NCBI GenBank assembly: GCA_003137095.1
Contig: PLET01000113.1
Location: forward strand, 1 to 64,000
DNA from: Gammaproteobacteria bacterium
GTDB taxonomy: Bacteria; Pseudomonadota; Gammaproteobacteria; Steroidobacterales; Steroidobacteraceae
Direction: 5' to 3'
Length of the DNA stretch: 64,000 nucleotides
Notes under the pieces: model-generated
Seen by the model: the letters and a program-made list of their open reading frames with translations, nothing else
The model's database searches: none
Told to the model about the DNA's origin: nothing
Shown here: positions 792 to 18,318 of the stretch, one piece after another
Layout: each line of letters opens with the position of its first letter
Position numbering within the stretch: the stretch's first letter is position 1
Made by a program: the position numbers and the translations under genes

Positions 792-826
792 TACAGCGTG
801 CTCGCTAGAACAAGCACTTAGGGCGC

Positions 827-845
827 ACGGGTACATCACGGGTAT
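827..845 (+). promoter_or_regulatory. Two arm-type repeats at the distal island end (candidate integrase-binding sites)
   Basis: ACGGGTAC at 827-834 and ACGGGTAT at 838-845 start 11 bp apart, about one helical turn. The same octamer occurs four times between the integrase gene and the guaA-side junction (18164-18267). Tyrosine integrases bind such short repeats through their N-terminal arm-binding domain. Binding here is inferred from position and repetition. Confidence 0.55.
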
Positions 846-853
846 CTGCCTAT

Positions 854-2194: not shown

Positions 2195-2224
2195 TAGAGC
2201 CTCCTGTCTGCGTGAGTTTGGCTC

Positions 2225-2953: not shown

Positions 2954-3452
2954 TCAACCCTGACTTTATTGAGGCAATGCCAGCTTCGCTAAGCGCGTAG
3001 GTATCCGTTCCAGACTCTAAAAACGTTCCCTCAGAGACCAGAGTTTTGAGATACGTTGTTAAGTTGTTGCTGTAGGTATCTTTGTAATACGTTTTGGCTG
3101 TCTGCATCTCGGTCAGCAGCTCTTTGCGCTTCACCGTCCTCTGTTTTCCAAAAATGATCAGTTTAGCCATCGCTGCCTTTGCGAGACCTGATCCGCTGTC
3201 AATCTTCAACCTCTGTGCAATGGTTGAAGTGCTCATATCCTTGAGCTGCCCGCCAGCCGAGTTGTCGCCCTGGTCGCCGTTTTCCTCTGCTTTAGGCAGC
3301 TTGAGCGCATTTTTCGGCAACAAAGCCGAAAGCTTCTCAACCATCTCAAGCACGTCCTGTTTCGAGATAGCCTCGTCGCTCTCATATTCAAGCTCGAAAG
3401 AGCCCATCTTGATTTTGATTTTGCTCGGCACGATCACTCCAGCTAAGTCCAT
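2940..3452 (-). CDS. Hypothetical protein, first gene of the HEPN-like operon
   Basis: This is a 170-residue protein of unknown family. The N-terminal third contains a short beta-rich stretch (KIKIKMGSFELEYES) followed by a helix (KQDVLEMVEKLSALL). After a low-complexity linker, residues about 75-165 look like a winged helix: helices followed by a strand pair (GTFLESGTDTYALSEAG). It overlaps the HEPN-like gene by 14 bp, so the two are probably co-translated, as toxin-antitoxin pairs often are. No Shine-Dalgarno sequence is visible before the ATG; a CATAAT box ends about 12 bases upstream, so the message may be nearly leaderless. A regulator or antitoxin role is plausible but unproven. Confidence 0.6.
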   Translation of the reverse strand: MDLAGVIVPSKIKIKMGSFELEYESDEAISKQDVLEMVEKLSALLPKNALKLPKAEENGDQGDNSAGGQLKDMSTSTIAQRLKIDSGSGLAKAAMAKLIIFGKQRTVKRKELLTEMQTAKTYYKDTYSNNLTTYLKTLVSEGTFLESGTDTYALSEAGIASIKSGLNGQS

Positions 3453-3484
3453 TTAGATCGCAGATTATGCTACATAATGCAGAC

Positions 3485-3490
3485 TATAAT
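3485..3490 (+). promoter_or_regulatory. -10-like TATAAT upstream of the 3561 gene
   Basis: A consensus TATAAT lies about 70 bp before the plus-strand gene at 3561, in the divergent spacer. No good -35 hexamer is present at 17-18 bp, so this is only a candidate. Confidence 0.25.
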
Positions 3491-3560
3491 TGTGAGTTGT
3501 TGCACAGAAACAGTGAGTTAGCTGCGCCACGGATGGTCCCGGTGCAGACAAGGAGGATTG

Positions 3561-4100
3561 ATGTTCGGCAGTAAAGGCAGACACAGGAAGAAATTGACCG
3601 AAGCCATACTGGCTGAGCTTCAGCCTCTGGTTTTCGATGTGGAGCGGCAGACCGGCAAGAAGATCAGCAGCATTCGCAAAGACCCGTACACCCTCGGCTT
3701 CCTCGCCGGTATGACTTCATACACGACGATGCGTCTAGATCAAACCCTCGACCAAGGCGACAAGGGATTGATCCTCTTTGCGGTAATCGAACAATTGTAC
3801 GGACCGCACCAGGTGGTACCAACGGAGTTAATCAATTTTCTTCAAGGTGTTCCGCTGCCGAATGCCGAATTTAAGAACGGTTTTGAAAACTCCGCGAAAT
3901 TGCAGTTGCTGCTCTACACAACACAGAAGCCTGTCGGAGATCCGGATTACGAAAATACCCTCGCGGCGGTACGTAGCGGGGTGGGAAATCAAATGAATCG
4001 CTTTACGCCAGGAGGAACGGAAGACAGCCACGTCATCGGCCTTTTAATGGCGAAATGGTTCTACCAGCCGGCGATGAAGAAACTTGGCCTCGACGTATAG
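3561..4100 (+). CDS. Hypothetical protein (180 aa class)
   Basis: This is a soluble protein of 179 residues that I do not recognise. A basic N-terminus (SKGRHRKK) is followed by amphipathic helices; no transmembrane segment or known catalytic motif is evident. The ATG at 3561 is preferred over an in-frame TTG at 3558 because AGGAGG at 3551-3556 leaves four bases before the ATG but only one before the TTG. It is transcribed divergently from the HEPN-like operon and ends five bases from the converging PDZ lipoprotein gene. GC is lower than in the chromosomal backbone, as for its island neighbours. Confidence 0.65.
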   Translation: MFGSKGRHRKKLTEAILAELQPLVFDVERQTGKKISSIRKDPYTLGFLAGMTSYTTMRLDQTLDQGDKGLILFAVIEQLYGPHQVVPTELINFLQGVPLPNAEFKNGFENSAKLQLLLYTTQKPVGDPDYENTLAAVRSGVGNQMNRFTPGGTEDSHVIGLLMAKWFYQPAMKKLGLDV

Positions 4101-4105
4101 CAATG

Positions 4106-4924
4106 CTACGGATTTAGCGTTACAGGAATCGTACGGGGTAGATCGCCACGCAGCAGGTCGAAGGTCACTACCTGGCCCGGCAACCGCATAAGGTCTGCTG
4201 AAAGGCTCTGCACGTCGGTAATGTCCTTGCCGTTCAGCCGAAGGAGGATGTCTCCCTCAAGGAAATTGGCGTTGAAAGCGGGTGTACCGCGCACGACTAC
4301 CACGACTTGCACTCCCGTATTGCGCTCCAACCGGTGCCGAGTCGCATCATCAATCGGGATATAGTTCAGTCCCAAATGAATTTTATTGACGTCGCGCTTT
4401 GCCCAGTAACTTGCGTAAAACGTGTTTCTATCAACGGAATAAGGTATGGCATAGGTGGAGTAGCCACCCGGGGTAGTGATAGTGCCCGATCCGCTGTAAT
4501 TCGCGCTGCTGCCATTATTCCCGTAAATCGTACCTGACGTGTTAACCGTTGAGACAACATTTGGATTGGCAACCGTATATGGAACTACACCAGAACGCGT
4601 GTCCATATAGTCAGACTTGAAGAGAACAACAGACGCGCCGACCTTCTTGCCCTGCTCGACCGCCTGGGCTTGATTGGATCTATTTGCGGGACCGTAGAAG
4701 GATGACTCTCCGATGTAAACAAAACCATCCTCCGCCATTCGCTTAGCATCGGCTTGCACGTTGGCGGAATGCAGATACACCGCGGGCTTAGCCGGCGCTG
4801 GAACCAAGGTTGTCGCCGCAAGGGCTAGTGCGGCTGGATTAGCTGGATGGTAGTACTTCTCAAACCCGCTCGCACACCCGGTAAGCAGAACAATAACGGC
4901 TCCTGCCAAGACAAACAGTTTCAT
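4106..4924 (-). CDS. Lipoprotein with C-terminal PDZ domain
   Basis: The N-terminus MKLFVLAGAVIVLL is a lipoprotein signal with lipobox L-T-G-C (Cys17 from the chosen start), so the mature protein is predicted to be membrane-anchored in the envelope. The middle (about 95-160) is rich in Gly, Ser, Asn and Thr and is low in complexity. The last 80 residues match a PDZ domain of the type in periplasmic proteases (GTPAFNANFLEGDILLRLNG, then DITDVQSL and the closing strand TIPVTL). No protease catalytic triad is present, so the PDZ probably acts as a binding module. An in-frame ATG at 4936 exists, but its own GGAG is the ribosome-binding site for the ATG at 4924, which is therefore chosen. Confidence 0.75.
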   Translation of the reverse strand: MKLFVLAGAVIVLLTGCASGFEKYYHPANPAALALAATTLVPAPAKPAVYLHSANVQADAKRMAEDGFVYIGESSFYGPANRSNQAQAVEQGKKVGASVVLFKSDYMDTRSGVVPYTVANPNVVSTVNTSGTIYGNNGSSANYSGSGTITTPGGYSTYAIPYSVDRNTFYASYWAKRDVNKIHLGLNYIPIDDATRHRLERNTGVQVVVVVRGTPAFNANFLEGDILLRLNGKDITDVQSLSADLMRLPGQVVTFDLLRGDLPRTIPVTLNP

Positions 4925-5231
4925 CTTTAACTCCATTTTTTTAACGAATATCCCATCACAATAACGTGACGCGCCCGACGCTGCTTGCAGGTATTATGTT
5001 TTATCAATGTCCATCGAAATAAGAACACCCATCACAGTATTTCGATATCTCAAAACCACTATAGACGGCAAATGGGACCCTAAGAGAACTTCTACAGGTC
5101 TCCTACCTACGCACTATTTCATTCACCTCTGTGCCTGGTCGAACTAAGCGTCGCGCGAGACATTCTTTGAAAATCGCAATTCTAAAAATGCAGGAAGACT
5201 TTTTCCCCGCATTTCTGGACCCTGCTCATCT
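4925..5231. other. AT-rich spacer, no gene seen
   Basis: About 300 bases lie between the start of the PDZ lipoprotein gene and the 3' end of the oxygenase-kinase gene. Both are on the minus strand, so this should hold the lipoprotein promoter and possibly a terminator for the upstream gene. I see no convincing hairpin with a T-run, no RNA gene and no coding region. Confidence 0.4.
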
Positions 5232-8200
5232 TTACTTCAAAGCAGAAACTCGAGTTGACCGACTGAGAAACCACTCAATCATATTCAAAATGCGCTGACT
5301 GTCTTCCTTGTTTTCATTCCGTACTTCTTCGACACAGTCCCAGATCACCGGCAGCTGGCAGATATTTTGCACTTTGGTCTCGCGGCTCCGCTTGAATTTC
5401 TCGTCTTGGGAGTCGCCTCGACCAATATGTCGAGCTGCCTTGATCGACCTAGCAACGACGAACCGCAAAACTGCCAGATTCGTTTCCAATGCCACCGCAC
5501 GTGACAAAAACGATTCCGTGAATAATCGGTCGCCTTCGAAAACGATGTTCACTGGCGTATCCGCCACCGAGGCCAGAAACGCTTCTGCTGCGGGCTGCAC
5601 AGCCCAACTCAGCTTATCTGTCCCCTGGAATAGGCCGCCATTCGCCTGATACTTCCCGAGGACGTAAAGCCTTAGACTGTCGCTGTACATACAATCAAGC
5701 AGCTTCACCTTCTTCAGCGGCACCCAATCATCAGCCCTGCTGATGAGCTGCTTGACGATGAATGTTTTTCCTGAGGCAGGCGGGCCGCCGATTGCCAAGA
5801 CATTTGCCCTTCCTTGGCGGTAAGTGGAACGGTACTCGACCAGTCTTTCCTTGGACATCTCGCTGAATGGCGAAGCCACGAACTCCGCTTGCCTCCGAAG
5901 CTTTTCGACCAGCTTAGATTTGTCCTGGCGCCAATAGGTCGGAGCCCGCTGTAAATGCCCCACGATGGTCGGCTCAGAAATTTTCTGGGTAACCGGTGGC
6001 CGGGTGCCCTTCCTGATTGGCACAACAGACGCAATCGCTTGGAAGAGCCAATATGACTCTCCGTTCGTCACAACCGCCTGCCCCCCCGTGGGTCGATCCT
6101 TGTACCTCCAGACGATCAGGGATGCATCGGACCCAGTCCTGGCTGCAAGCAACGCGACGGACTGGAAATCACTGGACCAAGTCAGCTTGGTCGGTGCGCC
6201 TTGCGATGGGCAGGACACGCGAAGTACCGGCTGCCATCGACGGGCTTTGGAAAGCTTCAACTGAGTAGGTTCAGCGGACACCTTCCACGGCCTGCCCGCC
6301 AGCGCTTTATCAAGGGGCCGAGGCGGCAGCCAGTAGGTCCCTACCCGTTCATAACGAGTCTGGAAGTCTTTTGAGGCGATGTTCTGCGCCCTGCCCCGCC
6401 AATGAACCAGTTCCTGATCAAGCAATATTTGTTCCGCTGCATCACGTATACCTATAGCATCGCACAATATCCTGGCGGCCGATTTCACCAGCGTTCCCTG
6501 TACCGTGCCACTGTGAGCAAAGCCCAACTCGTACATCAGGTCGGACTGTGGAGCCACCCGCCACCAATTTCGCAGGGCCAGACTGCCTGCCCCCGCGTAG
6601 TAGGATTCCCAAGACCCTTGTAGGGACTGTTCACGCTGTCTCCAATTTTGTTTGACCGATAGTGTCGTAAAGGCATAGCGAAATGGCGCCTCCGGAATCT
6701 GAGTCGGCACCCTCACTAGCGATACCGTGGCGCCGCTTTCCCACCGAGCCTGGAGCCATTTCACTGCATCACGCGATAATCTTGTGATTTCCTTCGGCAA
6801 GAACGGCAGCGAACCAACCGCCTGAACGTTGAATCGATTATTGGGCAACTTCACGGCACCACTCTCGCTCTCGCAGTACGCAATTGCCCATCGATCCGTG
6901 TTGATGTAAATCGCGTCCACGTTAACTGGACCATCTTCATCATCCCACCTATCTTGCCGAGGCGTCTTGAAATGGATCGCCGAGGTCAGGGCCGCCAATG
7001 TTTCCACGTGCCTGAACGATGGCTTTGGTAGCTCTGCCAAGTATTCCCAGTTCGCTGAATTGGCTAATGTATCTCTTTCGTGAAGAACCGACAGCAACAG
7101 GATCTCCGTGTTCAGCAAACCTTTTGCTCGAGCTTGATCGACGAGATACGTGGCAGGTGGTTTCCTATTTTCCGGATCGATTTCCGACCGCAAAAAGTCA
7201 TACCAGTCCCGCGACTCCCACATTTTGGGGAATAGCTTCCCTTTTCTACGTTTGAACCGTCGCCGGAGTTCCTCATAATCCAAAGAGCCACAGAAAGCCA
7301 AATCCTCCCTGGCGTAACACACAATCGACATACGCTCGGATTCCTGGTCCTTTGCATCAATCGCCGTGTTTTCGTGGATGTATTCGTGATTGGCGATGAA
7401 CAGTAAATCCCTCGGCGCAAGGGTGAACTCAACGTTAAACTCTGGAAGTATCAAGTGGCCGCCGGTGAACTCTCTGTCGTTAGAGAACACCGAAATGTTG
7501 GACATACCCTGGGACAGATCGCCGCTGTCTCGATGCGCGTATGTTCTAAAGTTCTTGTTGACTGTAATGGTCGTAAAGCAGGTTCCGCGGATCACAAAAC
7601 GAGCGTCCAGCCTGTGGCAGAACTGCTTCTGGGCTTCGTATCGCGTGGGCAGCGCAAGTCGAAATGCTTCGTCGATTCTACGGATCAGGGGAAGCACCCT
7701 TTCAAATGCATAGCTGTGGTCCTGGTTCCATCCGCAAGCTCGCCCCCAAGGATTTTGGCTGTCACGGCCAAAATATCCGACGGTCCCGGAAAGGACCGGG
7801 GTTGCGTAGGCTACTCGGCTCATTGCCGTCCGCCTCAATTTGGAAATCGCTGCACTCCGCTGCTTTAATGGCTGCGAGGCGATTTTTTCCCACCAGACAT
7901 CAAACTTCGCTGGGCTGAAGGTTGATTTGCCCTTGGGTTTGAGCCACTTCCTGGCGCTCTGCGGTTTGCGATCCTTGCTTCTGTTGATAGCCTCTCGAAT
8001 CGCAAGCCGTACATCTTCCTTATCGCCGTCGCATCGCTCCAACGCCTTTAGTACGGCCTCCTGCTCTGCCGATACATACTCTGTAGGCTTGCCCGCAATT
8101 TGCAGCGGTCCGGCTGCGGCGCCTCTGCGCTCCGTAGAAACGGCGGCGGTATTAAGACACCGATAGAGCAGCTTCTCCTCATCCTCCGAGAAGGTTCGTG

Positions 8201-8252
8201 GTAGGTAATGAGCGGCGGGATTTGTCTTCGGGCTTGCCCACTTGTAGGCCAT
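5232..8252 (-). CDS. TET/JBP-family 2OG-Fe(II) dioxygenase fused to a C-terminal P-loop kinase
   Basis: This is a 1006-residue intact protein. Residues about 185-320 carry the TET/JBP fold signature: TTITVNKNFRTYAHRDSGDL with the iron ligands H240 and D242, then GGHLILPEFNVEFTL, then the distal H293 in IHENTAI and a likely 2-oxoglutarate-binding R307. Family members oxidise the methyl group of thymine or 5-methylcytosine in DNA. Residues about 815-960 form a nucleotide-kinase-like P-loop domain with Walker A GGPPASGKT (822-830), GTDKLSWAVQP (877-887), EGDRLF (906-911) and an Arg-rich lid near 941-945. This resembles the kinases predicted in phage base-hypermodification clusters. Residues 370-770 are unassigned. 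The pairing suggests oxidation followed by phosphorylation of a DNA base. A divergent promoter with a C-box-like operator lies upstream. Substrate (T or 5mC) is not decidable here. Confidence 0.85.
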   Translation of the reverse strand: MAYKWASPKTNPAAHYLPRTFSEDEEKLLYRCLNTAAVSTERRGAAAGPLQIAGKPTEYVSAEQEAVLKALERCDGDKEDVRLAIREAINRSKDRKPQSARKWLKPKGKSTFSPAKFDVWWEKIASQPLKQRSAAISKLRRTAMSRVAYATPVLSGTVGYFGRDSQNPWGRACGWNQDHSYAFERVLPLIRRIDEAFRLALPTRYEAQKQFCHRLDARFVIRGTCFTTITVNKNFRTYAHRDSGDLSQGMSNISVFSNDREFTGGHLILPEFNVEFTLAPRDLLFIANHEYIHENTAIDAKDQESERMSIVCYAREDLAFCGSLDYEELRRRFKRRKGKLFPKMWESRDWYDFLRSEIDPENRKPPATYLVDQARAKGLLNTEILLLSVLHERDTLANSANWEYLAELPKPSFRHVETLAALTSAIHFKTPRQDRWDDEDGPVNVDAIYINTDRWAIAYCESESGAVKLPNNRFNVQAVGSLPFLPKEITRLSRDAVKWLQARWESGATVSLVRVPTQIPEAPFRYAFTTLSVKQNWRQREQSLQGSWESYYAGAGSLALRNWWRVAPQSDLMYELGFAHSGTVQGTLVKSAARILCDAIGIRDAAEQILLDQELVHWRGRAQNIASKDFQTRYERVGTYWLPPRPLDKALAGRPWKVSAEPTQLKLSKARRWQPVLRVSCPSQGAPTKLTWSSDFQSVALLAARTGSDASLIVWRYKDRPTGGQAVVTNGESYWLFQAIASVVPIRKGTRPPVTQKISEPTIVGHLQRAPTYWRQDKSKLVEKLRRQAEFVASPFSEMSKERLVEYRSTYRQGRANVLAIGGPPASGKTFIVKQLISRADDWVPLKKVKLLDCMYSDSLRLYVLGKYQANGGLFQGTDKLSWAVQPAAEAFLASVADTPVNIVFEGDRLFTESFLSRAVALETNLAVLRFVVARSIKAARHIGRGDSQDEKFKRSRETKVQNICQLPVIWDCVEEVRNENKEDSQRILNMIEWFLSRSTRVSALK

Positions 8253-8309
8253 TTGTGATCTCGGTCTCTGAATTGCATCTAAGAAAAACAGTATCTTATG
8301 TGCACTTCA

Positions 8310-8331
8310 CTTCTTTAGTCGACTAAAAGTG
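8310..8331. promoter_or_regulatory. Operator candidate: 14-bp palindrome and C-box-like half sites
   Basis: TTTAGTCGACTAAA (8314-8327) is a perfect 14-bp palindrome in the 92-bp spacer between the divergent oxygenase-kinase gene and the 8345 gene. The right half, GACTAAAAGTG (8321-8331), matches 9 of 11 positions of the box GACTAAGAGTC found upstream of the island's controller-protein gene (11481-11491). The likely binder is that controller protein. Confidence 0.5.
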
Positions 8332-8344
8332 TCAGGAGCTCGCA

Positions 8345-9094
8345 ATGGCCACGACTTCCACCGCAACGTCAAAATCCACACCACGTAGCCGTATCAAGCC
8401 GGTATCGACAGCGGAGATAAAGGCGGAGTTGAAGGGTCTGGTGGGCTTCACCAAGGAATGGAGTTCAACGGACTCGCAAGCCCGAGGACTGCTCTATAAC
8501 CTGCTCGGCACCATATTCGAACTCAGTGAGCGGTTGAGCAGAAAGTCATCGAAGGAAGCTCTGCGAGCGGAATGCGCTCGGTGCGACCATATTCGCCAGA
8601 GCAAGATGTTCAAGATAGCGGATCGCACTGTTACCGAGCTGCTGATCGCATATGCTCTTGGAACCGACGCAAAAAAGGCCCCAAGCCGGTCCCAGTGGAA
8701 AAAAGTCATACAAAAGGGCAAGAGCGCGCAACTTCCCTTCAAGCGCAAATCATTCAGTGATTGGCTTCACGAAAACGGTGGGGTCGAAGGGGTGCTAAGC
8801 GGCGGAAAGAAGCAATCTCCAAAAGCTGCCAGAGTCCCGTTTGATTTGGTTGAGTTCGCGTCCGGTTATGACCCGACCACCAATCCAATTCAACTCTCTA
8901 TAGATCTCGCAGACACCCCAAGTTTTTCTGACGACAGCTATACCAACGATTTTGCGTTGGTCCTGTTGAAAAAGGCCAAGAACCTCGAAACCGGGGCAAT
9001 GAATGGTTTCACTGTGGTGGATGTTGTAAACAACTCCGAGCTTGTTGCATTGGCCGCTCAATCAATAGACGCACAGCAGAAGAAAAAACACTGA
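8345..9094 (+). CDS. Hypothetical protein divergent from the oxygenase-kinase gene
   Basis: This protein has 249 residues and no family I can name. A Ser/Thr/Lys-rich N-terminal tail of about 18 residues precedes a helical region with a CxxC-like pair (ECARCDH, near 78-84) and basic stretches (KKVIQKGKSAQ, FKRKSF) that could contact nucleic acid. The C-terminal third is acidic and ends in a lysine run. AGGAG at 8334-8338 sets the ATG. It shares a short promoter region and the palindromic operator with the TET/JBP-kinase gene, so co-regulation is likely. It could be a specificity or accessory factor for the modification enzymes, but nothing in the sequence proves that. Confidence 0.65.
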   Translation: MATTSTATSKSTPRSRIKPVSTAEIKAELKGLVGFTKEWSSTDSQARGLLYNLLGTIFELSERLSRKSSKEALRAECARCDHIRQSKMFKIADRTVTELLIAYALGTDAKKAPSRSQWKKVIQKGKSAQLPFKRKSFSDWLHENGGVEGVLSGGKKQSPKAARVPFDLVEFASGYDPTTNPIQLSIDLADTPSFSDDSYTNDFALVLLKKAKNLETGAMNGFTVVDVVNNSELVALAAQSIDAQQKKKH

Positions 9095-9125
9095 TTCAAC
9101 TGAACCGGCAAAAATGTCGGTCGAT

Positions 9126-9153
9126 AGGGTTCCGATTAAGACCCTTTAATTTT
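9126..9153 (+). terminator. Weak candidate terminator after the 8345 gene
   Basis: AGGGT (9126-9130) and ACCCT (9141-9145) can pair across a 10-base loop, followed by TTAATTTTTG. The stem is short, so confidence is low. Confidence 0.3.
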
Positions 9154-9507
9154 TGTTTGGATTAAATCGGCGTAGTCCCGCCAATAAAACACCCCTCACC
9201 ATCATATTTTTTTGCTAATACTACCGAGACCTCCACTTTCTCGACCCGCCCGCGAGGCGAGCGTACCGCCGAATCCGTCGAAATTCAATCGGCCTTTGTT
9301 CTAGGCGTTAACAACGCTCACACGCAGCAGAATCCAATTCGATCTGCTGCTCTCTGGCCTATTTGCACCAGGTCCCTGCCTGAACATTTAAACGCCTCCC
9401 GAAGCTAAATACAGGTAACTAATCGGTAATACCGGGGTGGCTTTGAAACGTGTATCGAAATGCTATTTTGGCCTTTTGGCTACTGAACAAGTTCTGGGAA
9501 GAGAATA
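9154..9507. other. Non-coding spacer before the small-gene trio
   Basis: About 350 bases with no supported gene on either strand. The 3' end must contain the promoter for the operon starting at 9508. I could not single out a convincing -35/-10 pair, RNA gene or repeat. Confidence 0.35.
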
Positions 9508-9711
9508 ATGGATGACCCACTAGGACTTAACAGCATTCCAACGCCGGCGCCTATACGTGCTGAACAGGTTGCACCCGCGCCTATCATCGCAAACCTGCAC
9601 CAAAGATTGACAGGCAGTTACACGGCCGATTCGGTCGAAACCCGCATCGTCCTGCTGGCACACCTGATCTTTCTCACCTACGCAGACCTCAAGGAGACCA
9701 TCATCGAATGA
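9508..9711 (+). CDS. Small hypothetical protein, first of a coupled trio
   Basis: This is a 67-residue protein. Its proline-rich N-terminus (SIPTPAPIRAEQ) leads to a short helical C-terminus. GGGAAG lies six bases before the ATG. The stop overlaps the next start in ATGA (9708-9711), so translation is coupled. No family is recognised. The tight coupling to a ribbon-helix-helix-like protein is the best evidence that it is real. Confidence 0.5.
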   Translation: MDDPLGLNSIPTPAPIRAEQVAPAPIIANLHQRLTGSYTADSVETRIVLLAHLIFLTYADLKETIIE

Positions 9712-9905
9712 ATCCGACAGAACCTATCTACAATGCCTTCATTGGATTCAAGGCGCCGGAGGACTTCCTTGAGCGGTTTGAACGTTTCAGTGCCGTAGTC
9801 GGGCGCAACCGCAGTGCTGTTGCTCGACATCTACTTGCGCGGTGCCTGTCATCCTATGAGAACGACAAGATTGCAATCGCCAAGCTCAGGCAGGAAATTC
9901 TGTGA
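9708..9905 (+). CDS. Ribbon-helix-helix-like small DNA-binding protein
   Basis: This protein has 65 residues. The pattern of a short strand (YNAFIGFKAP), a helix (EDFLERFERFSAVV) and a second helix after GRNRSAV fits a ribbon-helix-helix (Arc/MetJ-like) fold, which binds DNA as a dimer. It begins in a 4-bp overlap with the upstream gene and ends in a GTGA overlap with the downstream gene. Likely roles are plasmid- or phage-type copy control, or an antitoxin/repressor of this small operon. The fold call comes from pattern only. Confidence 0.55.
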   Translation: MNPTEPIYNAFIGFKAPEDFLERFERFSAVVGRNRSAVARHLLARCLSSYENDKIAIAKLRQEIL

Positions 9906-10081
9906 TCGCCGTAATCCGTACCAAGCAGGACTTAGTGCGGGCACTCGCCTTTAATGAACTGCAATTTGTCGGTGAGTATGAAGTGGTAAATGAACGCGGA
10001 TTGAAGGACGCCACCGACAAAGTCCGCGCACTTCTAAGGCAAAAGAAAAAGCTACACCTCGTCGTTATTGAACGAGCCTGA
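9902..10081 (+). CDS. Tiny hypothetical protein, third of the coupled trio
   Basis: This is a 59-residue protein beginning at GTG 9902, which overlaps the stop of the upstream gene (GTGA). It reads MIAVIRTKQDLVRAL and ends KKKLHLVVIERA. A compact alpha/beta pattern is possible. No family is recognised. Support comes from the coupled start, the unbroken frame and the stop at 10079-10081. Confidence 0.45.
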   Translation: MIAVIRTKQDLVRALAFNELQFVGEYEVVNERGLKDATDKVRALLRQKKKLHLVVIERA

Positions 10082-10146
10082 CATCCGTGTTTGAGCAGTG
10101 ACCGACGCGATAGTGCTCGCTAGCGGACGCAAAGTATCGCTAACGG

Positions 10147-11217
10147 TTACTCCGCCTGAATAATAACGTTCATCGATTTAATCGGTCCGTCGTTTTGGTA
10201 GCTCGGGTTTGCGCCCCAACTTGATTGCCAGCCCCCATTGCCACCGAAGTAAAATGTCAGCACATATTGAACACCGGCCTGAGTAGCAACATTTTGGTAA
10301 ATCGTACCGGCGCCGGTGCCGTGGCTTCCTGTTAAATCGACAAAGCTCCCTCCCGTTGGGCCAATGGCACCGCAGCCACTGTTGGCAACGTCGATATTGC
10401 CGATAGAGACCACCCACCCAGAGAGAATCGTAGTGCCAGCCTCACAAGAAGTGCCAGCGCCAGAGAAATCGCCATCCGTGAGCAGATTCGTGAGCGACGC
10501 GGTTCCCGCCACAAGAGATAAAGAGGCAATTACCGGCCCGTATACCGTTGCATTCGCACCATTAAGACTCGCAAAAGTAATTTGAGTCGTCGATGTAGTT
10601 GCGGTGAAAGTAACTGCCTGAGACGTCCAACCGAAATCGTTATTAGCACGCCCGGTTGTATTGATGCTGTAGGTCTGATTTGCGATATAAGCATTCGGAC
10701 CGCACGCACGATCCAACGCAGCCCAAGAGGCACTGGACGACGTGGAACTAGCGGCAGTGTGGGGTGATATTCCAACGGAGGCTGTTTTTGCGATGTAGGG
10801 GCAATAGTAATATGAAGAGAAATCATTTGTGGTGTAGACGATATTGCCCGGTGAATATGTTGTCCCGGAGTTCCACAGACCGAGGTATACGGCCGGTCCT
10901 TGCGGCCCAGCGGGTCCAGTCGCTCCAGCGGCCCCGGCCGGACCTTGCGCGCCCTGCGGCCCAGCGGGGCCTTGTGGACCTGTTGCCCCTTGCGGCCCCG
11001 TCGGCAGGTTTTTCACCGTGCTCTGCAACGTTGAAACGTCTTGCGCGGTGCCATTAACGGCATTTGCTACCGCATTGAAATTGGCGTTGACGTCGGCGGC
11101 TTTAGCTGGACTCCCGGAAACAAATGCGTTCGGAATCGTAACGGTGCCGGATTCAGCGCTTCCTGCGGCTATGACTAATGCCGCACAAAGCGAAACGGAG
11201 AATTTTTTATTATTCAT
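10147..11217 (-). CDS. Secreted collagen-like protein with C-terminal carbohydrate-binding-like domain
   Basis: This protein has 356 residues. A signal peptide ([23 protein letters not shown]) is followed by a short helical region that could trimerise (about 38-70). Twelve uninterrupted Gly-X-Y triplets follow at residues 74-109 ([16 protein letters not shown] and onward), a bacterial collagen-like repeat. The C-terminal 240 residues are rich in Ser, Thr and Gly. The last part ([44 protein letters not shown]) resembles DUF642-like galactose-binding beta-sandwiches. The product is probably exported and surface-displayed. A tiny lipoprotein gene 15 bp upstream is likely in the same transcript. 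It looks like adhesion cargo unrelated to the DNA-modification genes. Confidence 0.8.
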
Positions 11218-11232
11218 AGTCGGTTTCGTTCC

Positions 11233-11394
11233 TTATGTCCAGTTTGTGTTGTCCCAGGTACCTGAGTCCCAGGTCAGTGGTTGATTTTGTCCGGTGCTTT
11301 GCGAGGGACCAGAAGCACTCGGACTTCCGCCGCCTCCGCAACCACCCGCGAATGCCAACATCGCTACGGCAAGAAACCTAAATCCAAGCCGCAT
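11233..11394 (-). CDS. Tiny lipoprotein upstream of the collagen-like gene
   Basis: This is a 53-residue product. [19 protein letters not shown] forms a lipoprotein signal with the lipobox A-G-G-C (Cys19), followed by a Gly/Ser/Gln-rich linker and a Trp-rich end ([13 protein letters not shown]). A GGGAGG purine run lies about four bases before the ATG. It ends 15 bp before the collagen-like gene on the same strand and probably belongs to the same operon, perhaps as a small envelope anchor or accessory. Confidence 0.6.
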
Positions 11395-11465
11395 AAGCCT
11401 CCCCCCCTGGTAGTACCAACCAATCGCTGGCTATCGTCTCGAAAGATACCACGGACAATGTACGA

Positions 11466-11491
11466 CGCCTATAGTCCGTGGACTAAGAGTC
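11466..11491 (+). promoter_or_regulatory. C-box operator of the controller-protein gene
   Basis: Two boxes, CGCCTATAGTC (11466-11476) and GACTAAGAGTC (11481-11491), are separated by CGTG. This matches the arrangement recognised by restriction-modification controller proteins such as C.Esp1396I and C.AhdI: GACT-N3-AGTC boxes around a GTG-containing centre. The second box is a perfect GACT-N3-AGTC and the first is degenerate at its outer half. It ends 25 bp before the ATG at 11517; a TATTCT box at 11501-11506 would make the transcript nearly leaderless, as is common for C genes. Confidence 0.65.
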
Positions 11492-11516
11492 ACATCACAA
11501 TATTCTGTGGTTCCCT

Positions 11517-11741
11517 ATGGGGAACAAGACAATTCCGGAGGCTTTTGGAGATGTCTTGCGAGACTGCCGCACCCGGGCCGGTACCACCCAGGAGAATCTC
11601 GCCTTCAGGGCCGAGCTAGACCGCACCTATGTTTCTCTACTTGAACGCGGTCTACGTCAACCAACGTTAGAGACCCTATTTCGGCTCGCCGCTGTTCTTG
11701 AAATCGCGCCCACCACTCTTACTTACGCGGATGATCGGTAG
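11517..11741 (+). CDS. XRE-family controller (C-protein-like) transcription regulator
   Basis: This protein has 74 residues, the usual size of C proteins. The helix-turn-helix core reads TTQENLAFRAELDRTYVSLLERG, with the TQE, LDRTYVS and ERG positions typical of restriction-modification controller proteins, followed by RQPTLETLFRLAAVL. These proteins activate and then repress their own promoter through paired C-boxes. A C-box pair lies immediately upstream (11466-11491). No restriction endonuclease or DNA methyltransferase gene follows; the next clear gene is a serine recombinase. A similar half-site lies in the promoter of the TET/JBP-kinase gene, so this regulator may time expression of the island's DNA-modification genes. 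Confidence 0.8.
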   Translation: MGNKTIPEAFGDVLRDCRTRAGTTQENLAFRAELDRTYVSLLERGLRQPTLETLFRLAAVLEIAPTTLTYADDR

Positions 11742-11759
11742 AATGGAGGGGCATTCCTG

Positions 11760-11966
11760 ATGCTGCGGTCCTATACCGAAACCCCGTATGAAATCGTCAT
11801 CGTGCAGGAACAAATAATCAATGACTTCCCCGCGCGTGATGTCCATACGGCAATGAAGTCATATCCGTATACGCTCGCAATTCTCTACGGTATCGTTTTC
11901 TTCGTTTTCAATTACGGAGCACGATATGAAACGAGTTGGAGTCTATCTGCGAGTCAGTACTACTGA
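11760..11966 (+). CDS. Doubtful small ORF overlapping the recombinase start
   Basis: This is a possible 68-residue product with a GGAGG sequence eight bases before its ATG and one hydrophobic segment (YTLAILYGIVFFVF). Its last 41 bases overlap the serine recombinase start in another frame. No family is recognised. It may be a real short membrane protein or simply an open stretch in the recombinase leader. Confidence 0.25.
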   Translation: MLRSYTETPYEIVIVQEQIINDFPARDVHTAMKSYPYTLAILYGIVFFVFNYGARYETSWSLSASQYY

Positions 11967-12510
11967 CCAAACAACTGCCAATCAACGCCTCGATCTGGAG
12001 CGGGTTGCAGCTCAGCGCGGCTGGGTAATCGCCGAAACATATGTTGATCACGGAATCAGTGGCTCCAAAGGCCGCGATAAGCGGCCTGCATTCGACAAAC
12101 TCTGCAAGGACGCCACCTCCGGCAAATTGGATTTGGTGGCCGCCTGGTCAATTGACCGCCTCGGCCGGTCGCTACAGCACGTCGTTACCTTTCTGAATGA
12201 ACTCAGCGCAATGAACGTTGATTTATACCTTCACCAGCAATCAGTCGACAGCTCGACTCCCGGTGGCAAAGCAATGTTGTCGATGTGTGCGGTATTCGCC
12301 GAGTTTGAACGGAATATGATTATTGAACGGGTCACTGCCGGAATGGCGCGAGCTAGGTCCCAAGGGAAAGTTTTTGGACGAACCAAAGTCTCACCCGCAA
12401 CCGAGTTGGAGATTCACCGCTTGCGGAAACTTGGACACGGCATCATCAAGACTGCGAAGCTCGCTGGTGTTGGCGTCTCAACGGTCCAAAGAGTAGTTTC
12501 GGCTGCGTAG
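11926..12510 (+). CDS. Serine recombinase (resolvase/invertase family)
   Basis: This protein has 194 residues. The N-terminal resolvase domain starts VGVYLRVSTTDQ with the nucleophilic Ser11, followed by the conserved YVDHGISGSK, DRLGRSLQHVV and ERNMIIERV motifs. The C-terminal 45 residues form an HTH_7-type DNA-binding domain (HRLRKLGHGIIKTAKLAGVGVSTVQRV). The length fits the small resolvase/invertase group, which resolves cointegrates or inverts segments rather than integrating large elements. GGAG lies six bases before the ATG. Its target sites are not identified. The island's integration is more likely due to the tyrosine integrase at 16830. Confidence 0.9.
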   Translation: MKRVGVYLRVSTTDQTTANQRLDLERVAAQRGWVIAETYVDHGISGSKGRDKRPAFDKLCKDATSGKLDLVAAWSIDRLGRSLQHVVTFLNELSAMNVDLYLHQQSVDSSTPGGKAMLSMCAVFAEFERNMIIERVTAGMARARSQGKVFGRTKVSPATELEIHRLRKLGHGIIKTAKLAGVGVSTVQRVVSAA

Positions 12511-12535
12511 ACATACTGATCTCCCTACATTTGAA

Positions 12536-13102
12536 CTACAACTTGGTACTTCGCCGAAGACTTCGTTTCACCGACTGCTTCAGCCAATTGTCCTTCCAGA
12601 ACCCATAGAGGTCGTGACAACCCTGATCTATTCGCAGAGCGAGGTCGTCCAGCCTCTGCGACTTAAGCTTCAGCACCTTTCCCCGACCCTTCTTATGCGT
12701 AGCTTCACCAAGCTTGTTCAGCGCCTTGCCCTCAAGCAGTGAAGCCAGCATTGAAAAAGTCATTCCACCCTCCGGTCCCCAACGTCCGTGAACGGCAGTG
12801 TTTCGCTCGGCGTTCAACGCACTAAGGTTATTGATGAGATCAGTGAACGCTTGTTGCTTCTTCTGGGACTTCAACTTCAACAATCCCAGGTCCTTCAAGA
12901 TGTTCAGCTTGTTGCCGATCATCTTGCCACCAACCAATACCTCGAATTGCTGCTCACGGAGCTTGGCGAGACTTTGAATCAGGAGATCTATGGTGTCTTC
13001 GAGCTGTGCTGACCCCGACACCACCAATCCGAGCGCGGCTAGCTCGTTGTCAGTGAGAAAGTTCCTAGCACTGAGATAGTTGTTTTTCTTAAGTCGCGTC
13101 AT
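12536..13102 (-). CDS. HEPN-like protein coupled to the amino acid:DNA transferase homologue
   Basis: This protein has 188 residues and is all-helical by pattern. The segment LNAERNTAVHGRW gives R100-N-T-A-V-H105, an R-x4-H match to the HEPN ribonuclease motif, preceded by helices like those in HEPN proteins (LEDTIDLLIQSLAKL and FTDLINNLSAL). The C-terminus is strongly basic. Its ATG overlaps the stop of the upstream transferase gene in a 4-bp ATGA, so the two are co-translated. A ribonuclease tied to a DNA-modification enzyme could act as a guard or abortive-infection effector; it could equally be a non-catalytic helper. Confidence 0.6.
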   Translation of the reverse strand: MTRLKKNNYLSARNFLTDNELAALGLVVSGSAQLEDTIDLLIQSLAKLREQQFEVLVGGKMIGNKLNILKDLGLLKLKSQKKQQAFTDLINNLSALNAERNTAVHGRWGPEGGMTFSMLASLLEGKALNKLGEATHKKGRGKVLKLKSQRLDDLALRIDQGCHDLYGFWKDNWLKQSVKRSLRRSTKL

Positions 13103-14184
13103 TGCGGATTAAACGGCTCTGACCAGCGTTGTGGTTGGTTGTTGAAGTAGGCCTCGACCCGTGGGATTCGCCCATAATCACATAGGGCTTTTGTCCAACT
13201 GTGCAGGTAGGCTCTGGGTGAATCATTTACCGGATCGTCGCGATGATTCTCAAAAAGCATACTATCTGGGAATACGGCTTGCCGGGCTTGATGGTACTTT
13301 TTCCATAGCCATTCGTATTCCGGCCAATCGGCCATCATCTTCATCGTGTCATCATATTGTTCGTCGATGTACCCGAGCTGATATCTAGTGCCCTTATGAC
13401 CGCGCTTGTAATTGCAACACGCGGTCTCCAGCGTGAAAAAGTCGGCGCGTTCAAGCTCGGGATGGCTGGCACAAAATCGCTCAAGGTATTCAGCGGCGGA
13501 CCGTTCGAGCATCGACACGTCCACGGCACTCCAGTGCTTGTCAACCAAATCGTCGCGACCAATTGAAAATGCCCAACCGTTAGTATGGCTCTTTCCGTGT
13601 CTTCCGAATTCCATCGTGGGCGGTTCAATAGGAACTCCGGCGATGCGAACGAGAGCTTCAGAAAAACACCAGCCTGCCATCCTGCCCCATTGATACCATT
13701 TGTCGAAACACAGGCATTGAAGCTGTAGGTAGTTAGTCTTCTTGTCTGCTTTTTGTATGCACGACTCAATGAGCTTGCCGAGACTGCCGTATCGCTTGAG
13801 GCTGTTCCCAACAGACTGGAGAAACTTTGGGAATACCATCTTGCGATACTTCGCGTCAGGGCTGAATAGTAACCGGCTCTTGTTGGCCTTGAAGAATGCG
13901 GTGACACCCCGAACATCCGGCGTCATCAACGGAAACTGGTCGGCCAGCATCGATTCAGTGGGTCCCGAGTACGTGCTGCCGTGATGAAGGGCCAGCACAC
14001 AGCGCTTTTCAAAATCAAACGCACCCTGGTCGGCTATCCACCGCTCGCAGGCGAGATCCGGCGAAACGTCATTCGTTTCGCACATTGCTCGATAGAACCA
14101 GTCAAAACCGGTTTGGCGATACTCCTTTAGCCGGTAATCGACGGTCGTGAGCACGGGCACCCAGTCAGGCGAAGAGCAGGACAA
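13099..14184 (-). CDS. Amino acid:DNA transferase (ADDT/AADT) family protein
   Basis: This protein has about 361 residues. Segments match the phage amino acid:DNA transferase family (formerly aGPT-pyrophosphorylase) as I remember it: HHGSTYSGPT with FP after it (67-85), RYGSLGKLIES (131-141), WGRMAGWCFSEAL (166-178), SHTNGWAFSIGRDD (199-212), and FTLETACCNYKRG with RYQLGYIDEQYDD (250-279). In phages such as ViI and M6 this enzyme joins an amino acid to phosphorylated 5-hydroxymethyl-dU in DNA. The start is uncertain: a TTG at 14184 directly follows an in-frame TGA, no ribosome-binding site is visible, and GTG codons lie a few residues in. It is flanked by a 72-residue ORF upstream and coupled to a HEPN-like gene downstream. 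The family is firm; the bound amino acid and target base are unknown. Confidence 0.8.
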   Translation of the reverse strand: MSCSSPDWVPVLTTVDYRLKEYRQTGFDWFYRAMCETNDVSPDLACERWIADQGAFDFEKRCVLALHHGSTYSGPTESMLADQFPLMTPDVRGVTAFFKANKSRLLFSPDAKYRKMVFPKFLQSVGNSLKRYGSLGKLIESCIQKADKKTNYLQLQCLCFDKWYQWGRMAGWCFSEALVRIAGVPIEPPTMEFGRHGKSHTNGWAFSIGRDDLVDKHWSAVDVSMLERSAAEYLERFCASHPELERADFFTLETACCNYKRGHKGTRYQLGYIDEQYDDTMKMMADWPEYEWLWKKYHQARQAVFPDSMLFENHRDDPVNDSPRAYLHSWTKALCDYGRIPRVEAYFNNQPQRWSEPFNPQ

Positions 14185-14192
14185 TCAATATG

Positions 14193-14411
14193 TTACAACG
14201 GTTTGGCCGCTATTGCATCGCCAATCGAACTTTCGAGTTGCTTCGAATATTGCGAAAGAAATAGGCTGGTGATGAGCCAGCCCAGTTTTGGCACGCGAGG
14301 GTTGTCATTGTTGCCGTTAAAGAACGGCCCGTAGTCTTGCAATCTGATTCCAAATTTCCTCATTGCGATGTACGAAGGCCTGAAGCCGGGTAATAACCGC
14401 CGTCGCTTCAT
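14193..14411 (-). CDS. Small hypothetical protein upstream of the transferase gene
   Basis: This is a 72-residue basic protein starting MKRRRLLPGFRPSYIAM, with no recognised domain. It ends eight bases before the transferase frame opens and lies on the same strand, so it may be an operon leader gene. The transferase lacks a good start and this ORF ends so close to it that a frameshifted or decayed N-terminal extension is an alternative. Confidence 0.4.
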   Translation of the reverse strand: MKRRRLLPGFRPSYIAMRKFGIRLQDYGPFFNGNNDNPRVPKLGWLITSLFLSQYSKQLESSIGDAIAAKPL

Positions 14412-14701
14412 TGAGCACGGCCAGACCCGATGCTACGTCAGGCGGAGAAGGTTTCAGAGCAGTCTTCCTGGTGCGTTTGTCGAGTAATGCGCCTTGAGCA
14501 AAGTGCCCCCCTCGTAGGGCCTCCTACGCCTGAACATCGACTGGTCGCCCCGAATGCCGACGCAAGCCAAACCTCCCCGGACCACTGTGCACGGGCATCG
14601 TCACCATAAGTCAGCGATTTTGCTTGGCAGCACACGTCTGCCTTTACCTTGACGTTATCCTCAGTAGAGTTCGCGGCCGACTAAAGCGCGGAAGCGAATT
14701 G
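14412..14701. other. Spacer upstream of the transferase operon
   Basis: About 290 bases should contain the divergent promoters for the minus-strand transferase operon and the plus-strand 14702 gene. I see no C-box, RNA gene or strong hairpin; short open stretches here look accidental. Confidence 0.35.
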
Positions 14702-15016
14702 ATGACAGGTTTCTTGCCTGATGGCGGAATAGCTCTTTACTACAAAGCAGTCTCATTGCCGACCATCATTATGGTGACGAAGGAGGCACTTGCTGGTCAA
14801 CCCCTCATCGAGTACTACGCAGGGAAAACGTTGATCAGCTATCCCTGCTTTGGCTTTATGTTTTCATTCTTGCTGCCACTGACTCCAAATCAAGTTGTCG
14901 CACATTTCAAAGCCCACGCCCTGCTGGCGCTCAACGATTTCCGAGCAGGAAAGCTCGAGACCAGCGCAACTACAGGTGAGAGATACCGGTGGGTAAGTTG
15001 CAATGTTTCCATTTGA
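14702..15016 (+). CDS. Hypothetical protein
   Basis: This gives 104 residues from the ATG at 14702; an in-frame ATG at 14624 would add 26 residues of less protein-like sequence. GGAAGCG upstream of 14702 may serve as the ribosome-binding site. The sequence has moderately hydrophobic stretches (PCFGFMFSFLLPL) but no clear export signal, and no family is recognised. Confidence 0.45.
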   Translation: MTGFLPDGGIALYYKAVSLPTIIMVTKEALAGQPLIEYYAGKTLISYPCFGFMFSFLLPLTPNQVVAHFKAHALLALNDFRAGKLETSATTGERYRWVSCNVSI

Positions 15017-15111
15017 CACGTAATGCCTTTTTATCTTTTGCCTATTGGGTTTACGAGTTCAATCGCATCAGTATCGTTCTCTTCCGTTGTATTTACTAAC
15101 TAACGGAGTGA

Positions 15112-15612
15112 ATGGCAATGAACCTCGAAGATCAAATGAACGTTGCTCGTGATGCTGATCGAATGTCCACGAGAGACATAAAAAACGCAAAGGCGCGTGC
15201 AAAACGCGCGGCAGCCAAGGCGGCGGCAGTGATGAATACGGAACTGCCTGAGCCAGCGCCAGTTGCTGCTGTTCCGGTGGTTGGTCAACCCACCATCCGC
15301 CCTGAGGTCGACGAGTCTGCGAGCGCCGCCGCAGCGCCGGTGGCGAAGGAAACGCCTGAGCCGGTCAAGATTACCGTCAAGAAGGCCGTTCTGGATTGGT
15401 TCTACGCCGTCCCTGGAACGGTGTTCAGCACCCAAGAGGCCGTCGCAGCCATCCGAGCAGTCCACCCCGGGATGAATGAGAGTAGCATTCGCGTCTGGAT
15501 CACGGACTTCCAGAAGGATGGGTCCATCAAGAAGGCCGGCAACGACGGTCGCAAGGTATTGTTGACGTCGGGGAAACTGGGCAAGTTCTCCAAGGGTTAC
15601 GTCGCCGGTTGA
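15112..15612 (+). CDS. Hypothetical protein with C-terminal winged-helix-like domain
   Basis: This protein has 166 residues. The N-terminal part is a charged helix (about 15-40, rich in Ala, Arg and Lys) followed by a long Ala/Pro/Val/Glu linker. The last 75 residues (VKKAVLDWFYAVPG, then FSTQEAVAAIRAV, SSIRVWITDFQKDGSI) have the look of a winged helix that would bind nucleic acid. GGAG precedes the ATG at 15112, with a second in-frame ATG at 15118. A good terminator follows at 15634. A small nucleoid-type or regulatory DNA-binding protein of the island is the likely role. Confidence 0.6.
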   Translation: MAMNLEDQMNVARDADRMSTRDIKNAKARAKRAAAKAAAVMNTELPEPAPVAAVPVVGQPTIRPEVDESASAAAAPVAKETPEPVKITVKKAVLDWFYAVPGTVFSTQEAVAAIRAVHPGMNESSIRVWITDFQKDGSIKKAGNDGRKVLLTSGKLGKFSKGYVAG

Positions 15613-15633
15613 ATCGAAGCGGAACTCAAGATC

Positions 15634-15659
15634 AGCCCGCCTAGTGCGGGCTTTTTCTT
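15634..15659 (+). terminator. Rho-independent terminator
   Basis: Stem AGCCCGC (15634-15640) and GCGGGCT (15646-15652) with loop CTAGT, followed by TTTTCTTT. It lies 22 bp after the stop of the winged-helix-like gene. Confidence 0.85.
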
Positions 15660-16367
15660 TGCCCTCCATCTGCATAGCCTCCTTCCACCCAACCTTTGCA
15701 ACACCTGCGGCGCAGAGTGGCGACTAATCTAGGTGCGGCATTCGGGCCGCTCTATCGCAAACGGACGAGCCTCCAGAGCCGTGCGATTTGTCTCCTTGGG
15801 AGTTTATCCAACTCAGGCACTATCGACGTCCAGGAGCATTCCAGGGCTGGGCAGGTACCATTGTGCCGGGTGCCTCGCGTCGCTGATTTCTGCTTAAGAA
15901 TTACGAACAAAAGAACCCTCAAGAGGTTGGTGAATATCCAATTCTGGACATTGCTCCCAACCAACTTCTACGCCCATAGGAATGGTCACAAACCACTCAA
16001 CATTGTCTCAGACCGCCTCTGATCACTTCATTCAAAATATACGAGACGAACACATTCCACTTGGTAGTTGAGACACCCGCGTTTCCACTGGACTCTTCGG
16101 GTATCATCCCGACGACACTCCTGCCGCAATACCTACAAAATATCCAGCAACCTCTGGCGTGGTTGTAAGTCCACATTTTTCTTCACCGTTTCCAAGCTTC
16201 CACTCTGTTGAAGTCGATATACCTCTAACTCGGTGTTCATCATCGTTTGCTGGTGTCTGGCCACCGTGCTAGCGAGGTGTATTCCGGTCACCGACCTTGT
16301 GTCTTGTGGTTGGATAAGGGTTCACATTCACTCTTGACCCTGCAAGGGATCCGAGCCTGGAAATAGA

Positions 16368-16432
16368 AAGGCCCAGGACTGGGTTAAGCAGCCCGGGCCT
16401 TAGATGATGTTGTTGGACGCCCCACCAACATC
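16368..16432. other. Two adjacent hairpins, possible structured RNA
   Basis: Hairpin 1: AAGGCCC (16368-16374) pairs with GGGCCTT (16395-16401). Hairpin 2: GATGTTGTTGG (16406-16416) pairs with CCACCAACATC (16422-16432) with one mismatch and a 5-base loop. Only four bases separate them and neither has a T-run, so they are not simple terminators. Strand and function are unknown. Confidence 0.4.
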
Positions 16433-16573
16433 AGTTTCGTGAATCTTGGGGGTGGGCCAATTGACTATCCGGGCGCCGGACTGCAACTTGCCATAATGTA
16501 TGGAACTGCTCGACCGTGGCCTTCCTTGGGGTCGGCGGGATACGCATCATTCCAAGGGTCGTCTGTCGATCAG

Positions 16574-16597
16574 GAATCGAGGTCAATACCTCGATTC
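16574..16597. repeat. Perfect 10-bp inverted repeat with 4-base loop
   Basis: GAATCGAGGT (16574-16583) and ACCTCGATTC (16588-16597) enclose CAAT. It could be an RNA hairpin or a protein-binding site; no T-run follows on the plus strand. Confidence 0.5.
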
Positions 16598-16829
16598 ACA
16601 TTCGTATTTAGGTCAAGGCGTTACTCGCTCGCTGCCGGCACTTCTCTGTCACGACTCGCGACGGCTTAACTCAACCCACTACTCTATTTTACCGCGAATA
16701 ACTGTAAGAGTATTCCACAGCGGATTCATCAACCGCGTTCAAGAACTACCAGTTGGCGATCCACTACACATCACATCGTAGAGCAAACGGAGAAGCTTTC
16801 CGTGCCCACTTTCGAGTACGGTTGGGTAG

Positions 16830-18158: not shown

Positions 18159-18163
18159 CCCAT

Positions 18164-18267
18164 ATACCCGTTTGACGTGTTGGCTCGCGCCGGCCACGAG
18201 TACCGGCACGGGTATTACGATACCCTACCGGGTGGCGAAAAGGGTTAAAACGGGTATGGACGGGTAT
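18164..18267. promoter_or_regulatory. Arm-type repeats between integrase and guaA junction
   Basis: The octamer ACGGGTAT occurs at 18208-18215, 18250-18257 and 18260-18267, and inverted at 18164-18171. The last two direct copies are spaced by exactly one helical turn. The same octamer occurs twice at the other island end (827-845). This fits integrase arm sites; the copies before the integrase start may also give autoregulation. Confidence 0.6.
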
Positions 18268-18318
18268 CTTTGGTACGCTTATAAGTGTCTGAAAAGATTA
18301 TATAATTGTTCGTAACGC

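Follow-up and report, generated by a model that had tools for sequence, protein, structure and literature searches.

A putative post-replicative DNA base hypermodification pathway, with a TET/JBP oxygenase-kinase fusion and an amino acid:DNA transferase homologue, on a bacterial mobile island

A TET/JBP oxygenase-kinase fusion and an amino acid:DNA transferase homologue lie on one island

We analyzed a stretch of 64,000 nucleotides (hereafter the window) from the start of contig C110 (145,731 bp) in the gammaproteobacterial assembly G000 (4.74 Mb, 129 contigs). Genes encoding a TET/JBP oxygenase fused to a P-loop kinase and a homologue of the amino acid:DNA transferases (ADDT) are present there on an integrase-bearing island next to guaA, and we consider it likely that they constitute a phage-derived pathway that hypermodifies a DNA base after replication. 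The TET/JBP domain of the fusion would act on a pyrimidine that is already part of the DNA and hydroxylate its C5-methyl group, the fused kinase would phosphorylate the hydroxymethyl group, and the ADDT homologue would displace the phosphate with an amino acid. All three enzyme families are present with intact motifs, and they are linked in bacterial as well as in viral loci. We infer the order of the steps, their activity on DNA and the base concerned. An earlier reading of the letters alone (the original prediction) had already proposed that a base is oxidized in place, phosphorylated and supplied with an amino acid; this is still the best reading, but its role and product are assigned by homology, and thymine as the base is not established. 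The features involved are the following:

5232-8252, minus strand: TET/JBP oxygenase-middle region-P-loop kinase fusion, 1006 amino acids (intact open reading frame, Pfam, PHROG, motifs)
7305-7709, minus strand: TET/JBP oxygenase core, residues 182-316, with H240, D242, H293 and R307 (PF12851, residues, fold match)
5853-7172, minus strand: middle region, residues 361-800, without a recognized family (most of the model below pLDDT 50)
5259-5816, minus strand: P-loop kinase domain, residues 813-998 (phrog_800; 34-48% identity to 10 viral-locus kinases)
13099-14184, minus strand: ADDT homologue, 361 amino acids, TTG start uncertain (PF18724, phrog_3271, fold)

The fusion protein matched Tet_JBP (PF12851) over residues 182-316 (3.4e-21, 75.6 bits against a cut-off of 34.9) and phrog_24024 over residues 19-358 (4.1e-78). 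In the predicted model the TET part gave fold matches to CcTet (1.6e-9), TET2 (7.3e-9) and NgTET1 (1.0e-8). The iron triad H240/D242/H293 and the 2-oxoglutarate arginine R307 are present, and they are invariant across five aligned TETs. The kinase domain matched phrog_800 over residues 813-998 (1.2e-7) and contains a Walker A motif, GPPASGKT, at residue 823, FEGDR at 905 and QDEKFKRSRETK at 949. The residues, the PF12851 match and the Walker A motif together confirm that the TET/JBP iron motif (H240-x-D242, H293) is fused to a P-loop kinase, as had been noticed from the letters. The structural model reached high confidence chiefly in the TET and kinase domains; 472 of the 1006 residues, mostly within 354-776, were below a pLDDT (predicted local distance difference test) of 50, and we therefore make no claim on the structure of the middle region.

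The second gene, also predicted beforehand about 5 kb away in the same island, is an intact open reading frame separated from the fusion gene by 4846 bp. Its product matched the ADDT family (PF18724; 5.1e-12, 46.4 bits against a cut-off of 26.2) over residues 92-263, corresponding to profile positions 67-228 of 232, and phrog_3271 over residues 10-314 (6.7e-31). It has the 20 invariant columns of a 15-sequence alignment of which it is itself one member. The profile searches that had been set as a check thus placed 5232-8252 in TET/JBP and 13099-14184 in ADDT, both above the curated cut-offs. The top three matches in the PDB of the ADDT model (mean pLDDT 76.7) were 8z2m/8z2n, the 5-phosphomethyl-deoxyuridine glycinyltransferase gp46 of PaMx, with probability 1.00, a template modelling score by target of 0.62-0.63 and a best E of 2.2e-3; all other matches had a probability of 0.30 or less (among the 50 of 56 listed). 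M6 gp51, a homologue of this solved glycinyltransferase, matched 8z2m at 1.2e-90 and 25qc, an 'amino acid:DNA transferase domain-containing protein', at 8.6e-200. The Pfam, PHROG and structure matches speak against a misreading of the two families.

The kinase belongs to a family found in phages with hypermodified thymine

The kinase domain of the window shares 34-48% identity with 10 kinases encoded in viral loci where TET and ADDT are found as well. A profile of the kinase family matched 10 of 12 records. When all of M6 was searched it gave one match, at 41685-41972, which is gp54 (~5e-4), and it gave one match in Vi01 (38380-38763, ~5e-4). Alignment of the kinase family to M6 gp54 with hhalign gave a probability of 93% (E 3.4e-7, 92 columns). 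M6 gp54 (NC_007809; L112:16686-17249) is annotated as 'terminase small subunit', yet falls in the base-kinase family; the same label is carried by phrog_800 and by the kinase of phage Cr30 (NC_025422). Because we take gp54 to be the kinase that acts on 5-hydroxymethyl-deoxyuridine (5hmdU) in DNA, the terminase label on phrog_800 and gp54 is probably wrong.

Unfused TET, ADDT and kinase genes form a phage cassette

Co-occurrence of the genes in other genomes had been set beforehand as a test, and they were found together in two metagenome-assembled genomes (MAGs), in 15 of 25 viral loci selected by ADDT, in 45 of 80 viral loci selected by TET, and in phage Cr30. For the TET survey of viruses the best 80 of 313 relatives were kept, and the counts describe these 80. 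ADDT was present in 49, the kinase in 45 and both in 45. Of the 80 loci, 39 extend 5.5 kb or more beyond TET on its downstream side; ADDT and kinase were both present in 24 of these and not both in 15. In 45/45 loci with both genes the kinase started within 284 bp of the ADDT end, in a frame separate from TET. An ADDT of the window's type, 48-59% identical to that of the window, was found in 25 viral loci (L116-L140), 17 of them with TET, 22 with kinase and 15 with all three; a TET-kinase fusion was present in 0/25. Several of the eight loci lacking TET are cut near ADDT; L137 extends ~8 kb upstream and still has no TET. Single-sequence scans of viral contigs gave no close relatives.

Among five phages examined, Cr30 carries TET, ADDT and kinase; DLP_6, C48C1 and Melnitz carry TET but gave no PF18724 match, and Bue1 has ADDT without TET. 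Sets of unfused TET, ADDT and kinase are a phage cassette, and this composition is not confined to chromosomes. The cassette of a T4-like virus, L056 (11187-16227), has a glutamine amidotransferase and a GNAT acetyltransferase between TET and the ADDT-kinase pair, together with two proteins without Pfam match.

The TET-kinase fusion recurs in two bacterial MAG loci

Bacterial genome contigs (84,980 species by the description of the tool) were scanned with short patterns, which may miss divergent copies and may omit the window's own genome. The scan with the TET alignment gave 70 pattern matches and no relative, missing L109-L111; the scan with the kinase alignment gave 48 matches, of which three were relatives (L109, L110 and L111). 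L109 and L110, contigs of two alphaproteobacterial MAGs (Rhizobiales and Beijerinckiaceae, respectively), share 96% identity over 8.5 kb, and we therefore count them as one element in two assemblies; MAG binning may misplace contigs. Each encodes an 1184-residue protein with TET and kinase matches. A PF00145 domain precedes TET and kinase in the L109 fusion, the one searched with Pfam: in L109:886-4440 (and likewise in L110) it makes up the N-terminal ~375 residues. Alignment with the Melnitz methylase showed that these PF00145 domains have neither the PPC nor the ENV motif; because of this they are probably inactive, and they may perhaps be DNA-reading pseudo-enzymes. The ADDT gene of L109/L110 is convergent with the fusion gene with a 4-bp overlap, its product is 51-52% identical to the window ADDT, and integrase genes lie nearby. 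In L111 (Parcubacteria MAG) the kinase and TET genes are next to each other, and the locus contains no ADDT.

The fusion was seen only in the window and in these two MAG loci. The original prediction knew of no characterized chromosomal system with this composition; the composition itself is that of a phage cassette, and the element is a mobile island, so that 'chromosomal' here means island-borne. An ADDT survey of the phylum found 1/398 genomes, the own genome of the window, and one of the family of MAG G127 found 2/298, G127 and G128, with no further copy. No plasmid match was obtained for the fusion, the window ADDT, the L109 ADDT or a 188-residue protein encoded next to the window ADDT (see below). 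A literature search, limited to leading results and with most journals outside its coverage, found no paper on a bacterial TET-kinase-ADDT island.

In an ADDT tree of 23 rows the window joins viral loci L123 and L126 with support 94/94, just under the starred level, within a clade of 15 rows, L109/L110 included (100/99); Bue1 is long-branched. In a TET tree of 26 rows, built without L071, L109/L110 join Melnitz (100/99), and the window lies in the other group, of 23 rows, together with T4-like phages, on a long branch and with unsure placement. As the TETs of L109/L110 and of the window fall in different groups, it seems that the kinase-ADDT core has had different TET partners.

The middle regions of the window and L109/L110 fusions share a YELG(F/L)AH motif, and their pairwise scores were not significant. 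Among the open reading frames of L001-L112, a set that does not include L116-L140, the motif occurs in five, three of which are copies of the window gene. The idea that the middle region is a fused form of the 443-residue protein of the L056 cassette, of the 220-residue methylase or of the 372-residue hydroxylase-like protein (both described below) was unsupported.

Thymine or 5-methylcytosine as the modified base

We lean towards thymine as the base. Neither of the two methylase families sought, PF00145 and a profile built on a PCYEDL motif, gave a match in the host assembly G000, which favours thymine; G000 is an estimated 91.77% complete, and at about 92% the absence of a methylase is no proof. 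Among the 14 other records PF00145 was absent from 13, only Melnitz having it, and it was absent from 6/6 virus records of a second search; many of the virus records are fragments. Thymidylate synthase matches were found in 3/15 records (G000, Cr30 and Bue1). The single match in G000 is on contig C16, outside the island, and the cluster thus has no thymidylate synthase homologue of the kind that makes hm-dUMP in a pathway of the ViI/M6 type; the homologue in Cr30 means that this phage could make the hydroxymethyl precursor by the other route.

A cytosine route is possible, and we give it a smaller, still substantial share of belief. A methylase would produce 5-methylcytosine, TET would oxidize it, and kinase and ADDT would build an aminoacyl-methylcytosine; the methylating enzyme of the host would then be one that the assembly lacks or that belongs to a family outside the two sought. 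In its favour stands a PF01555-type methylase of ~220 residues in 20 of the 25 viral loci with window-type ADDT, with PCYEDL invariant in eight aligned sequences and SPPC in 6/8. It lies between TET and ADDT in 14 (L117-L122, L125, L128, L129, L132, L133, L136, L139 and L140), directly before ADDT in four whose TET side is truncated or not visible (L124, L130, L131 and L134), and between ADDT and kinase in two (L135 and L137). Examples are:

L136:7355-8017: PCYEDL methylase
L120:7343-8005: PCYEDL methylase
L132:7316-7999: PCYEDL methylase

This protein is a candidate unusual cytosine methylase coupled to TET. Its position between TET and ADDT in 14 of the 25 loci favours 5-methylcytosine, and it is for this reason that thymine is not established; the view that the absence of PF00145 settles thymine was dropped once the PF01555-type methylase had been found beside ADDT in viral loci. 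The PF00145 methylase of Melnitz overlaps its TET, the L109/L110 fusion starts with a PF00145 domain, and PF00145 matches occur in the MAGs G127, G128 and G129, the two hosts of L109/L110 among them (G127 and G128) having matches beyond that in the fusion gene. The missing PPC and ENV motifs of the L109/L110 domain argue against the cytosine route, as does the lack of both methylase matches in G000. Moreover, the PCYEDL methylase was not found in L123 and L126, the neighbours of the window in the ADDT tree, nor in L127 or the cut loci L116 and L138. L123, L126 and L127 have instead a protein between ADDT and kinase (L126:2372-3490, L123:2867-4000, L127:2689-3936) that matches the aspartyl/asparaginyl beta-hydroxylases (PF05118) in L126 and L123 and is assigned by homology in L127; it would perhaps modify the attached amino acid.

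Neighbouring proteins, role and alternative explanations

Two further genes of the island bear on the role:

12536-13102, minus strand: 188-residue protein with Rx4H motif RNTAVH, overlapping the ADDT stop by 4 bp (motif)
2225-2953: second Rx4H protein, motif RNSCGH

Motifs of the Rx4H type are known from HEPN nucleases, and the two proteins may be HEPN-like, which we take as a lead. The 188-residue protein gave no Pfam match below E 0.76 and no NCBIfam match, and a homologue was found neither in L109/L110 nor in the 25 viral loci. By analogy with phages, the most likely purpose of the modification would be protection of island or host DNA from nucleases or restriction; this is the least certain part of our proposal.

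Several observations weigh against a hypermodification pathway. Fusion and ADDT genes are 4846 bp apart with other genes in between, and only the own genome of the window has the fusion or PF18724 among 118 relatives (0/117 others). The ADDT model gave no structure match at E 0.001 or below, and comparison of the window ADDT family with M6 gp51 by hhalign was not significant (probability 0.5%), so that it is the predicted fold that links ADDT to the solved enzyme; the family profile (A5) matched no PDB chain up to E 1. Plain BLASTP of the kinase against M6 gp54 gave no match, and the kinase profile found none in Bue1, a phage with ADDT, the other record without a match being the fragment L017. 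Tailoring after amino acid attachment in pathways of the ViI/M6 type uses pyridoxal phosphate (PLP) and radical S-adenosylmethionine (SAM) enzymes, and no tailoring enzyme was recognized among the 16 island proteins given to Pfam, a set from which the left island end is missing.

Some of these points would also fit a non-functional remnant of an integrated phage cassette, an explanation that we regard as unlikely. The distance of 4.8 kb, the intervening genes and the confinement to one of 118 relatives are in line with it, and so is the start of ADDT, a TTG straight after an in-frame stop without a clear ribosome-binding site. Decay is, however, difficult to reconcile with open frames of 1006 and 361 residues that keep the family-invariant residues, and with the recurrence of the fusion and a linked ADDT in another lineage when the 25 viral loci have no fusion. 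That the modification serves to label self DNA, an island nuclease attacking unlabelled DNA or responding to infection, is doubtful, although it deserves somewhat more weight than a remnant. The genes lie on an integrase-bearing island, which encodes two Rx4H proteins, one overlapping the ADDT stop and the other at 2225-2953; against this, PADLOC returned for 10 proteins only weak matches in four (E 0.0027-0.037), no restriction nuclease was recognized among the island proteins searched with Pfam and NCBIfam, and the 188-residue protein has no counterpart in L109/L110 or the 25 viral loci. We attach least probability to a kinase or ADDT acting on RNA, nucleotides or protein. The functions of P-loop kinases vary widely and phrog_800 bears the terminase label, but the kinase is fused to TET and linked to ADDT, and its family occurs in M6 (gp54) and Vi01, which are hypermodified-thymine phages (PMC6449724).

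Relation to known systems

In the hypermodification of thymidine in M6/PaMx and ViI, 5hmdU in DNA is phosphorylated and an amino acid is then transferred (PMC6449724), in the same order as proposed for the window, and a P-loop kinase family and a transferase with the ADDT fold are shared. In these phages, however, 5hmdU is made as a nucleotide before replication, whereas the TET/JBP oxygenase of the window would make it in DNA. The window differs further by the fusion of oxygenase to kinase and by the absence of recognized further tailoring enzymes from the island. Cr30 and the IMG/VR cassettes L016, L056, L118, L120, L126 and L136 cluster the same three families, but as separate genes and with extras: a methylase (L118, L120 and L136), a beta-hydroxylase (L126), or an amidotransferase and GNAT (L056). 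Cr30 also has a thymidylate synthase homologue. L109/L110 resemble the window in having a TET-kinase fusion, a linked ADDT and integrase genes nearby, and differ in the extra N-terminal PF00145 domain and the grouping of TET with Melnitz.

Iyer et al. (2013) and Burke et al. (2021) reportedly described TET/JBP-based base modification in phages, with hydroxymethyl pyrimidines as the start for further modification. TET-kinase-ADDT sets are already a phage theme, and what is new is the island-borne fusion; we know of no description of a guaA island in bacteria that carries ADDT and a TET-kinase fusion. Amino-acid-modified bases are known from phages in which the hydroxymethyl precursor is produced ahead of replication. 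With a TET-kinase fusion and ADDT, such a base would instead be written into existing bacterial or mobile-element DNA, possibly in a site-selective manner. More tentatively, and with slightly less confidence than we place in thymine, we propose that the island-borne enzymes write an amino-acid-bearing pyrimidine after replication at chosen positions, outside lytic phages, which could serve as a mark, either epigenetic or of self against non-self. If true, the fusion and ADDT would offer a route to aminoacylated DNA with only two proteins, which would benefit base chemistry and help to address whether bacteria employ such bases as marks, and the viral survey makes the substrate question testable through the PCYEDL methylase next to TET.

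The island adjoins the 3' end of guaA

The GC content is 0.527 over positions 1-18310 of the window and 0.661 from 18320 on. The step coincides with the 3' end of guaA, which is followed by an IMP dehydrogenase gene. The corresponding features are:

18319-19896, minus strand: guaA (GMP synthase), start of host-like high-GC sequence (PF00958 and PF00117; GC)
16830-18209, minus strand: tyrosine integrase in the island, at its guaA end (phrog_1, 4.1e-20; PF00589, 8.8e-6, 26.0 bits, slightly below the cut-off of 27.1)
18320-18335, plus strand: 3' end of guaA, presumed attachment site
11926-12510, plus strand: serine resolvase/invertase within the island (PF00239, 1.7e-43)

The integrase adjoins the 3' end of guaA and the composition shifts there, as in a guaA-integrated island, and we read the low-GC region as a mobile island integrated in guaA. 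No second attachment site was found within the 64-kb window, which begins at the first base of the contig, inside the island, the left end being off the contig.

On a 6.7 kb contig of G000 (C115, locus L108) there are three copies resembling the guaA end (738-753, 5184-5199 and 6430-6445), each with two mismatches to the 16-base pattern, as though small elements had accumulated at sites of the guaA type. The island protein encoded at 10147-11217 of the window has collagen-like repeats and a DUF642 domain.

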